Assembly (NCBI RefSeq): GCF_004194535.1
Contig: NZ_CP025781.1
Location: 992,001 to 1,056,000, forward strand
Reading direction: 5' to 3'
From: Iodobacter fluviatilis
GTDB lineage: Bacteria > Pseudomonadota > Gammaproteobacteria > Burkholderiales > Chitinibacteraceae
Length of the DNA: 64,000 bases
The notes beneath the pieces were generated by a model. That model had not been told where the DNA came from. It searched no databases and saw only the letters and a list, made by a program, of their open reading frames with translations. Position numbers and translations under genes: made by a program. This document shows, one piece after another, positions 56,003 through 61,340 of this stretch. The first letter of the stretch is position 1, and each line of letters begins with the position of its first letter.

Positions 56003-56168
56003 ATGCTGACGCCTGCAGCGTCGTTGCAGAATTAACATCCTATACCGCGAATATTACCCAGCAAATACAAGCTAAAACTGCCGCTGCACAGATTAAAGCC
56101 CAAATTTGAATATCTTCTGCAGTAATGGCGAATTATGCTTAAGCTATATAAGCCCCAAGGAGCTCGCC

Positions 56169-57278
56169 ATGAACTACGACAGCTTACTCGTTCCCAAAAT
56201 ACACGATATCAACACTTTCCAAGATTTTCGGGAAAGCCTAGGGGATTTAGCGCCGCGCATTGAGCAAATCATTGCCGAGCTAAAGCGTGACCCAGGCAAA
56301 ATGATATTAATCTCTGATTTATTCCGCGCCTTTCACAATATAAAAGGGGATGCTGGATTATGCCGAGTAGAGTTTGTTATTCCCTTAGTGCATGGAATAG
56401 AAACGCTACTTTCTAGAATGCGCGCAGGTGAAATTCAACTCACTGAGGTGCTCTCTGAAGTACTGCTGCTGACCCTAGATAGGCTAGAGCAAGCCGTAGA
56501 ATCGCTTAGCAATAATGCTTCTGCCAGTAGTTTGCACTTACCCACACTGGCACGTGGCTTAGATGGCTTATCCACTTTGCAAGCCGAAGAGCTTGATCCC
56601 GCTTGTTCTCGGCTGATTGAAGCGGTAACAGGCTTTAAACATGCCGCTGTTGTTGTCATGCCTGATCGCTCACGCAATGAAGTGGAGCGCTCAAATGAAG
56701 AGCGTAGCCAAGATTTGCGTTTTTTCCGCAATATGGCACTGCAATTAGAGATGCGCTCACCCTTATTTCGTGGCCGAACCGCACGTAATTTGCAATTAGC
56801 GTTAAATACAAATAAAGCCGCGGGCGGCGTTGTTTCTAGCACCCAGCTAGAGGCTGCCGTTTATATGCACGATGTTGGCATGATGTTTTTGCCTGAATCA
56901 CTATGGTTAAAAATTGGAAGAATGACCGATGCCGAGCGGGCCCAACTGATTGATCACCCAGCTTGGGCCGCCGGTTTATTGAGCCGTATGGATGGTTGGC
57001 ATGATGCATCAACCATGTGTTTGCAGCACCACGAAAACATCAACGGCACGGGTTACCCCAATAAACTCAGTGGCAACGATATTGTGCCGGGCGCAAAAAT
57101 CATAGCGCTGGTCGATGCTTTTGAAGCCGTCATGCTCAAACACAGCCATCGTGGGCAAAATAAATCTGTATTGCGGGCCATTGCAGAAGTCAACGCATCT
57201 GATCTGCAATTTGATTCAGACTGGATCGAGCCATTTAACCGCGTTATTCGCACCATGATGGAAAACGGCGGCTTGTAA
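56169..57278 (+). CDS. HPt plus HD-GYP-like signalling protein
   Basis: A 369-residue cytoplasmic protein. Residues 10-120 form a histidine phosphotransfer domain, with the phospho-acceptor in LFRAFHNIKGDAGLCR (His56). Residues 180-369 resemble an HD-GYP phosphodiesterase: HD at 234-235 in VYMHDVGMMFLPE, HP at 263-264, HHENINGTGYP at 287-297, and VDAFEAVM. The canonical HDIGK lysine is replaced by Met238. AAGGAG precedes the ATG at 56169. A phosphorelay input to c-di-GMP turnover is inferred. No sensor kinase is adjacent. Confidence 0.82.
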   Translation: MNYDSLLVPKIHDINTFQDFRESLGDLAPRIEQIIAELKRDPGKMILISDLFRAFHNIKGDAGLCRVEFVIPLVHGIETLLSRMRAGEIQLTEVLSEVLLLTLDRLEQAVESLSNNASASSLHLPTLARGLDGLSTLQAEELDPACSRLIEAVTGFKHAAVVVMPDRSRNEVERSNEERSQDLRFFRNMALQLEMRSPLFRGRTARNLQLALNTNKAAGGVVSSTQLEAAVYMHDVGMMFLPESLWLKIGRMTDAERAQLIDHPAWAAGLLSRMDGWHDASTMCLQHHENINGTGYPNKLSGNDIVPGAKIIALVDAFEAVMLKHSHRGQNKSVLRAIAEVNASDLQFDSDWIEPFNRVIRTMMENGGL

Positions 57279-59829: not shown

Positions 59830-60576
59830 ATGAAGACCCATTCCTTCCTAGCGCTATGGCTAATCGTCTACTCCATGAATAGCCATGCAGAGAGCATTCG
59901 TGTTGTTACTGAAACAACAGCTTATTCTTATATGAAGGAAGGAAAAGTGGCAGGACCTGCCACAGAAGTGGTTGAGCTGAGCCTTAAAAAAGCAGGCATC
60001 GTCGATTACAGTATCAATATCTATCCATGGGCAAGATCGTATGATCTCGCTTTAAAAGAAGCGAATGTGCTGATTTACCTGATTGCCCGCACACCCAGCA
60101 GAGAAACAGATTTTAAATGGGTGGGTGAGCTGAGCAAACCACAGTGTTTTTTGGTCAAACTAAAAGAAAGAACGGATATCAAGGCTAATAAACTAGAAGA
60201 CACAAAGCACTATTCTATTGGGGTTGTCAGAAATGATGTGCGCCATCAGTTTTTGCAGCAACGAAAATTAACCAACCTAAGTATTTCATCCCAGCAATCA
60301 GATAGCTTTAGGCAATTAGTCAATCATCAACTAGACCTTATTGTTTTATTTGATGCAGATATGCCTCGTCTCTGCCAACAGCAATCATTTGACTGCAATA
60401 AACTCGAGAAACTATTCTTACTTAATGAGCTTAGTAATGGGATATATATGGCATTTAGTAAGCAAACACCTGATTCATTAGTTAAACAAACTCAGGATGC
60501 TTTTGAAAAATTAAAAGCAGAAGGCCTAGTAAAAAAAATAATAGAACGCCCCCCTTGCCACGCTAAGAGGAGATGA
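59830..60576 (+). CDS. Periplasmic solute-binding protein (SBP_bac_3-like), first paralogue
   Basis: The 248-residue product has a signal peptide (FLALWLIVYSMNSHA-E). A family 3-type binding domain follows: IRVVTETTAYSYM, GPATEVVELSLKK, INIYPWARSYDLALK, LIARTPSRETDFKWVGEL and YSIGVVRNDVRHQFL. No permease or ATPase gene is adjacent. It is closely similar in plan to the next gene and coupled to it by a 4-base overlap, so the pair arose by duplication. It could be a sensory binding protein. Confidence 0.83.
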   Translation: MKTHSFLALWLIVYSMNSHAESIRVVTETTAYSYMKEGKVAGPATEVVELSLKKAGIVDYSINIYPWARSYDLALKEANVLIYLIARTPSRETDFKWVGELSKPQCFLVKLKERTDIKANKLEDTKHYSIGVVRNDVRHQFLQQRKLTNLSISSQQSDSFRQLVNHQLDLIVLFDADMPRLCQQQSFDCNKLEKLFLLNELSNGIYMAFSKQTPDSLVKQTQDAFEKLKAEGLVKKIIERPPCHAKRR

Positions 60577-61340
60577 TCTTGCTGAGGCTAAAGTGCATTT
60601 TTTTATCGCTATTACTCAACCTAACATTTGAAGGGTTGGTTTTCGCAGAAACAATTAAAGTAGTCACAGAGGAGCTTGCCCCATATAACTATACCGAGAA
60701 AGGTGTTTTAACTGGATTTTGTACCGAAATCGTTCAAGCTATTCTCAAAGAAATAAATATTCAAGGCGATTTTCAATCGATGCCTTGGGCGAGAGCTTAT
60801 GACATTGCGCTAAAAAATGAAAATGTACTGATCTATTCAATTGGTCGTACACCACAAAGAGAAATGCAATTTAAATGGATAGGCCCTATTGCTCATGCCA
60901 ATAATTATCTCTTTGCTCTGGCTAGCAGCCATATAAAAATATCACAATTAGCAGATGCAAAAAAATATCAAATTGCGAGTGTCAACGCAGACATTCGCGA
61001 GCAATTTCTAGAGTCACAAGGATTTTCCAAAGGAACAAACCTGCAATCTAGCGTAAAATATCAGCATAATTACGAAAAATTAAAATTAGGCCGTGTTGAT
61101 TTATGGGCAATGAATGACATAGCGGCTTATCACCTTGTTCGCCAAGCAGGTGATGATCCAGAAAAAATCCTCATAAAAACCTATAAACTTCAACTAGATG
61201 AAAGCAGATATTTCATTGCATTCAGTCATAAAACCTCTGACAAGATAGTAGACCGATTCAATATTGGACTAGAGAATATAAAAAAAAATGGCATATTAAA
61301 TTTAATAAAAAATAAGTGGGCATTAGAAAATGTAGATTGA
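60573..61340 (+). CDS. Periplasmic solute-binding protein (SBP_bac_3-like), second paralogue
   Basis: A 255-residue exported protein (signal LSLLLNLTFEGLVFA-E) with IKVVTEELAPYNYTEKG, GFCTEIVQAILKEI, SMPWARAYDIALK, YSIGRTPQREMQFKWIGPI and YQIASVNADIREQFLESQG. It is parallel to the first paralogue and overlaps it by ATGA. The histidine kinase gene starts 86 bases downstream. Its ligand is unknown; the family usually binds amino acids. Confidence 0.83.
   Translation: MILLRLKCIFLSLLLNLTFEGLVFAETIKVVTEELAPYNYTEKGVLTGFCTEIVQAILKEINIQGDFQSMPWARAYDIALKNENVLIYSIGRTPQREMQFKWIGPIAHANNYLFALASSHIKISQLADAKKYQIASVNADIREQFLESQGFSKGTNLQSSVKYQHNYEKLKLGRVDLWAMNDIAAYHLVRQAGDDPEKILIKTYKLQLDESRYFIAFSHKTSDKIVDRFNIGLENIKKNGILNLIKNKWALENVD

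Follow-up and report, generated by a model that had tools for sequence, protein, structure and literature searches.

PmGH from Persephonella marina (4MCW) is among the described HD-GYP proteins that can be compared with the one studied here. In the accessible text of PMC4159591, alanine at H189, D183, or K225 abolishes its hydrolysis, and the E185A and D305A variants retain some activity. K225 is not a metal ligand; it forms hydrogen bonds with two of the ligands, E185 and D222, as well as with D183, and RpfG, which has no equivalents of E185 and H189, is active nonetheless (same parts of PMC4159591). RpfG-type regulators likewise have a two-component input joined to HD-GYP, in their case an N-terminal receiver. 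Proteins that do not hydrolyze c-di-GMP have been described too. DvhD from Desulfovibrio vulgaris (9RBZ/9RC0), a membrane PAS protein with a degenerate HD-GYP domain in which SQ stands for HD and the double His is lost, binds c-di-GMP but does not hydrolyze it, as far as the accessible sections of PMC13090378 go, and Bd1817 from Bdellovibrio (3TM8) is HD-GYP-like, with no c-di-GMP hydrolysis and two metals kept (PMC8177086, available part). In the portions available of PMC4159591, PMC13090378, PMC9756655, PMC8177086, PMC1592074, PMC9239204, PMC11841396, and PMC10333796, no fusion of a histidine phosphotransfer (HPt) domain to HD-GYP is described, nor was a description found elsewhere in the literature searched, which did not take in the likeliest survey (Galperin and Chou 2022).

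We analyzed a window of 64,000 nucleotides from Iodobacter fluviatilis, to whose positions all window coordinates refer, and found in it a gene that codes for such a fusion. A first-pass annotation made from the letters of the DNA had proposed an HPt domain fused to a variant HD-GYP domain, and this is borne out, since both Pfam domains exceed their curated cut-offs: Hpt (PF01627) matches residues 18-109 (E 2.8e-9, 37.5 bits against a cut-off of 24.6) and HD_5 matches residues 193-350 (E 4.9e-25, 88.7 bits against 27.2). The Pfam scan found no kinase core in the protein and no match to the receiver domain PF00072 at E up to 1, and the three NCBIfam models listed for the protein are each below their own cut-off. 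The ATG start is preceded by AGGAG; a longer frame could start from an in-frame TTG at 56106, where an AGGAG-type site was not seen by eye. The gene and its N-terminal features are the following (counts refer to 97 aligned family members and 36 distant relatives, both defined below).

56169..57278, + strand: HPt / degenerate HD-GYP protein, 369 aa plus stop codon (ORF, Pfam; AGGAG upstream)
56220..56495, + strand: HPt domain, residues 18-109, CheA-P1-like (PF01627; CheA P1 structures by profile)
56334..56336, + strand: His56, presumed phospho-accepting His (93/97; Q 2, N 1, R 1; 28/36 distant)
56712..57248, + strand: HD-GYP domain region, residues 182-360 (Pfam HD_5 match 193-350)

Both flanking genes, which we labeled pseudouridine-synthase-like and LysR-like from reading their translations, are on the opposite strand, which suggests a single-gene unit for the window copy and led us to reject an operon partner inside the window. 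No partner gene adjoining the Iodobacter copy was seen in the window translations by eye or in profile searches, and promoter-like sites at the gene are not in excess (2 found against a shuffle mean of 3.0). Elsewhere in the window (59830-61340), two adjacent genes resemble periplasmic solute-binding proteins, judging from their translations.

The N-terminal part is a putative four-helix HPt bundle, assigned from sequence profiles. Its top PDB profile match is to a protein made by design, BRIC1 (6ff6, E 3.1e-19); natural CheA P1 domains come next, from E 6.1e-15 (2ld6) to 6.3e-13, along with designed four-helix bundles, so that among natural solved domains the HPt appears closest in profile to CheA P1, which it also resembles in its His motif; unlike CheA, the family protein has no kinase core. 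PmGH carries an N-terminal domain of its own where the family carries HPt, and RpfG-type regulators have there a receiver, with the opposite chemistry in the relay. CheA P1 is phosphorylated by the kinase core. The first-pass annotation had expected phosphate to reach the HPt from a response regulator rather than from a kinase; this is possible, and given the resemblance to CheA P1 both receiver-borne and kinase-borne phosphate may be considered. It had also placed the histidine, His56, within FHNIKGDAG, as the translation confirms. Within the HNIKG motif, Lys59 (94/97) and Gly60 (92/97) are about as well conserved as His56, which would fit a working HPt.

A search for the same architecture, as suggested by that annotation, found relatives, and they make up a conserved, apparently unnamed protein family of HPt plus altered HD-GYP. 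Matches at E 1e-30 or better were found in 26 of 61 nearby genomes, including the genome itself and 8/8 other genomes of the genus, and several genera of the same taxonomic family are without a match. Scanning the genome contigs yielded 79 loci that encode relatives at 43-98% identity, the nearest named record (98%) being that of an Iodobacter MAG (L036), and all but two short ones, L112 and L114, cover at least 338 of the 369 residues (77 of 79); Iodobacter, Aquitalea, Vogesella, Gallionella, Sulfuricella, Accumulibacter, and Zoogloeaceae are represented. Considering that many relatives are near full length and that the key residues vary little or not at all across 97 members, the architecture is not due to chance. 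In evenly drawn samples that included the genome itself, the family profile was found in 44/300 genomes of the order (E 1e-60), 18/369 of the class (E 1e-40), and 18/398 of the phylum (E 1e-40), the last 18 all being inside the class. The distribution of the family is patchy.

Residue counts were taken on 97 distinct aligned members, with 71 representatives below 85% identity; L093, L111, L112, and L114 (fragments or seemingly broken frames), L001 (the window), L003, and exact duplicates were left out, and L002 and L004-L008 served as comparison. Alignment A1 has 70 rows, the 71 representatives minus L031. The 36 distant relatives come from the class and phylum draws, and several of them share genomes (G164, G281, G293). 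Two class-level genomes have four family matches each, a sign of expansion, and some of these copies are without the HPt His (G164 with L116, L133, L136, and L138; G281 with L120, L134, L137, and L139). In Aquaspirillum serpens DSM 68 (L111:6001-7109), the copy seems to lie in two frames, with an open frame of 293 aa and a best segment of 10-256 within a 10-364 match, and it may be broken or reflect a sequencing error.

The C-terminal part has PDB profile matches to V-cGAP3 (5z7c), PmGH (4mcw), DvhD (9rbz), and PA4781 (4r8z). The residues of the active site are the following.

56775..56777, + strand: Arg203, where PmGH has H189, the first metal-ligand His (97/97; 34/36 distant)
56868..56873, + strand: His234-Asp235, HD motif, PmGH H221 and D222 (97/97; each 34/36 distant)
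56880..56882, + strand: Met238, where PmGH has the catalytic-network Lys K225 (97/97; 33/36 distant)
56955..56957, + strand: His263, PmGH H250 (97/97; 36/36 distant)
57027..57035, + strand: His287-His288-Glu289, PmGH H276/H277 (97, 95, and 97 of 97; His287 36/36 and His288 30/36 distant)
57051..57059, + strand: Gly295-Tyr296-Pro297, GYP motif (97/97; 36, 34, and 36 of 36 distant)
57114..57116, + strand: Asp316, PmGH D305 (97/97; 33/36 distant)

Compared with PmGH, the family has the equivalents of HD, H250, H276/H277, D305, and GYP, that is, six of the eight ligand positions (H221, D222, H250, H276, H277, and D305), whereas H189 is replaced by Arg, K225 by Met, and the D183 and E185 positions are changed. 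The D183 position is Ser197 in 85/97 members, with the others mixed, and the E185 position is Leu199 in 59/97, with the others mixed and Glu in 5. The H...HD...H...HH...D metal motif is incomplete, its first His being Arg throughout and the remainder retained. Arg203 pairs with the His of GHS in profile alignments to V-cGAP3 and DvhD, and V-cGAP3, which the name of its PDB entry makes an enzyme, carries Ser where PmGH has D183, a point against too simple a verdict on activity. The first-pass annotation had noted that HHE and GYP remain, as the translation confirms, and that the metal-site Lys of HDxGK is Met; the exchange is real (HDVGM) and invariant, but the Lys that is lost does not bind metal directly. 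The degeneration goes beyond the Met swap, with Arg203 as a second, equally invariant swap and the changes at D183 and E185 in addition.

Arg203 and Met238 are invariant among the 97 members, as are HD, H263, H287, D316, and GYP, which argues for a fixed replacement rather than decay. Going by the bonding pattern of K225 in PmGH, the changed residues would belong to one connected network around the third metal, and since the swaps hit positions whose alanine mutants are dead in PmGH, a loss of enzymatic activity is likely. Arg203 by itself proves nothing, because RpfG, which shares with the family the lack of H189 and E185 equivalents, is active. The family could, on this precedent, be an active binuclear phosphodiesterase, with two metals held by the HD...H...HH...D ligands and with c-di-GMP or pGpG hydrolysis under the control of HPt phosphorylation, and the strict conservation of the six retained ligand positions (97/97 except for H277, 95/97) suggests that metal is still bound. 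However, every member has Met in place of the Lys that PmGH cannot exchange for Ala without losing activity, and the Arg at the lost ligand is equally fixed; hence, we regard an active enzyme of this kind as unlikely, although a weak or altered enzyme is possible given the retained ligands. As the catalytic network is changed beyond the Met swap, the control of c-di-GMP breakdown by a phosphorelay branch, one of two options in the first-pass annotation, seems less likely than the other, a non-enzymatic sensor.

Among the non-hydrolyzing proteins, Bd1817 lacks the Tyr of GYP and carries Asn at the position of the last Asp, whereas the family keeps both residues. DvhD has a degenerate HD-GYP domain, as the family does, but the family retains most of the metal ligands, including HD and HH, and has an HPt as its input; a receptor role for the family is a proposal. 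We mapped the contacts of DvhD by a hand count on the profile alignment, independently of any structure and taking Tyr621 as the GYP Tyr, which is Tyr296 in 97/97 members. Lys582 then falls on Arg257 (R 57, K 31 of 97) and Leu577 on Met252 (L 53, M 33, I 9, V 2 of 97), both compatible, whereas Arg650 corresponds to His325 (H 91/97), Met646 to Val321 (V 81/97), and Tyr652 to a position that varies (H 57/97); Glu668 and Tyr523 were left unassigned. As the positions of Arg650, Met646, and Tyr652 differ, the binding site of DvhD is not simply conserved in the family.

HD-GYP is the better-kept half of the protein, since 31 of the 32 invariant columns of A1 fall there and one in the HPt. Beyond the metal motif, the invariant residues include N215, R273, W277, R336, E340, N342, and N357. 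In a tree of 83 HD-GYP domains, a branch with support 95/93 separates the family and its distant relatives from eight other HD-GYP domains; the program itself calls this bootstrap rough and not settled and warns of long branches that meet. The rows included 24 of the 70 family rows (every third), excluding duplicates and rows under 120 aa, and the comparison set consisted of seven domains of the same genome (two of them, L226 and L227, altered at HDxGK) and one of G048; L218, L219, and L228 of the same genome, with an unaligned HD region, and L225, which is the window gene, were omitted. This genome carries 20 Hpt matches and 11 HD_5 matches. One of its other HD-GYP proteins, L227 (G000:C1:3265672-3266058; a 332-aa frame), is also degenerate, with MN instead of HD and Met after G (MNIGM) and with GYP intact.

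The HPt His can go while the HD-GYP signature stays. His56 is lost in L035, L102, L105, and L110 of the family and in 8 of the 36 distant relatives. The two members that have a REC-TPR gene directly downstream, both from Sterolibacterium (L102:6001-7050 and L105:6001-7092), carry Gln at His56 and keep Arg203 and Met238; the Gln argues against phosphotransfer with the adjacent REC in these copies.

Of 115 loci, 14 carry a kinase and/or receiver gene downstream on the same strand (L043, L048, L053, L059, L067, L068, L101, L102, L105, L113, L188, L197, L203, and L234), a count for which flanks were short in some loci and misses are possible, as the neighbor kinase, receiver, and GGDEF genes were sought with small profiles derived from those same hits (cut-off E 1e-5). 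The 115 loci include at least two same-contig pairs (L048/L233 and L042/L204), L233 being outside the 14. Across this minority of loci, both kinases and receivers occur among the linked genes. Pfam confirmed a HATPase or receiver domain in seven of eight neighbor proteins, and the eighth is a GGDEF protein. In the Gallionella-type loci L043, L053, L059, and L067, a small soluble kinase, whose H-box was read by eye as HDMKN, and a REC-TPR protein are encoded behind the family gene on its strand (in L053, HATPase_c E 9e-10 and Response_reg E 2.1e-17, respectively). In another Gallionella locus (L100:7050-7436), the frame of the downstream small kinase is only 129 aa and may be truncated. REC-TPR is found downstream on the same strand in 9/98 loci, eight of which were profile seeds, and also lies beside the family gene in G1030 (L234). 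In L068 and L113, it lies about 2.5 kb away, with a gene in between that we take to be ABC-F-like. L197 has a TPR-GAF kinase and L203 a GAF kinase, each downstream on the same strand, the latter followed by a receiver protein.

A family-wide conserved neighborhood was rejected, since the commonest neighbor, presumably a ThiF/TcdA-like gene, is found in only 21/76 loci. In six Aquitalea loci (L057, L064, L076, L091, L092, and L109), an HHE...GYP-like protein with no obvious HD pair is encoded about 2 kb downstream on the same strand. GGDEF genes near some members would suit a protein-interaction adaptor, in which HD-GYP docks a partner such as a GGDEF protein and the HPt modulates docking, with the nucleotide unbound; RpfG acts on WspR in Lysobacter independently of phosphodiesterase activity (PMC10333796, accessible part), and the invariant residues outside the metal motif could form the interface. 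However, GGDEF linkage was rejected as general evidence, as its most frequent instance is a single gene order, with GGDEF on the opposite strand, that seven related loci share, and the nucleotide-facing GYP loop is conserved in 97/97 members; we consider such an adaptor decidedly unlikely.

In the order sample, where the itemized genomes with a match add up to the tallies (44 for the family, 118 for REC-TPR, and 195 for CheA), REC-TPR is present in 42/44 family-positive against 76/256 other genomes, without correction for kinship among these related genomes. Counted by hand by genus, the figures are 25/26 against 33/109; within CheA-positive genomes, which are likewise related, they are 42/44 against 73/151. 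We rejected co-occurrence as proof of partnership, since the genomes are related. CheA associates likewise, its dimerization domain being found in 44/44 family-positive and 151/256 other genomes. This last association, along with the best match among natural solved domains, would agree with the HPt being a P1 domain in trans, phosphorylated directly by the chemotaxis kinase core and not by a receiver. CheA is common anyway (195/300 genomes), though, and no chemotaxis gene was recognized beside the window gene, whose neighbors were judged from translations only. As a reading of its own, we consider this origin of the phosphate very unlikely; it may be combined with a pseudo-phosphodiesterase. 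In Iodobacter, a REC-TPR gene lies elsewhere in the genome (G000:C1:1262400-1263977, one of two matches), with no kinase found by the small kinase profile in the 14 kb around it, and a search for an orthologue of the small kinase gave no strong match, the best of three (E 3.2e-9) being inside a 439-aa frame.

We favor, at a rough probability of 0.5, the family protein being a phosphorelay-linked pseudo-phosphodiesterase that couples the c-di-GMP level to a His-Asp relay. With its HD...H...HH...D core and GYP loop kept and its first metal ligand and catalytic-network Lys exchanged, the HD-GYP domain would most likely bind c-di-GMP or a closely related dinucleotide and hydrolyze it inefficiently at best. 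At His56, the CheA-P1-like HPt would carry a phosphoryl group that it exchanges with a receiver or kinase, and the phosphorylation state of His56 and the nucleotide state of HD-GYP would influence each other, coupling the c-di-GMP level to the relay. A c-di-GMP receptor role as in DvhD is our best inference, by analogy, since the catalytic residues are changed, the GYP loop and most of the core are retained, and DvhD offers a solved precedent. The parts are known and their combination is a variant, probably non-enzymatic. In a putative stronger version, c-di-GMP-gated phosphotransfer, the third-metal/catalytic network would have been replaced as a unit by the fixed Arg/Met pair, giving a c-di-GMP-responsive phosphotransfer protein whose HPt hands on or holds back phosphate within a kinase/REC-TPR relay according to bound c-di-GMP; we hold this version to be doubtful.

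Catalytically inactive GGDEF-EAL proteins such as LapD are c-di-GMP receptors (PMC13090378, accessible sections), and among HD-GYP domains DvhD is the receptor example that we found. The uniform exchange in the active site, together with a phosphotransfer domain, lets this family serve as a natural test case for the question whether c-di-GMP receptors arose repeatedly from HD-GYP domains, with Arg203 and Met238 as precise, testable targets. The family also bears on the direct exchange of information between c-di-GMP and His-Asp relays: in the stronger version, if it is true, a single polypeptide would couple a second messenger to a phosphorelay, the nucleotide being its input and the phosphoryl group its output.
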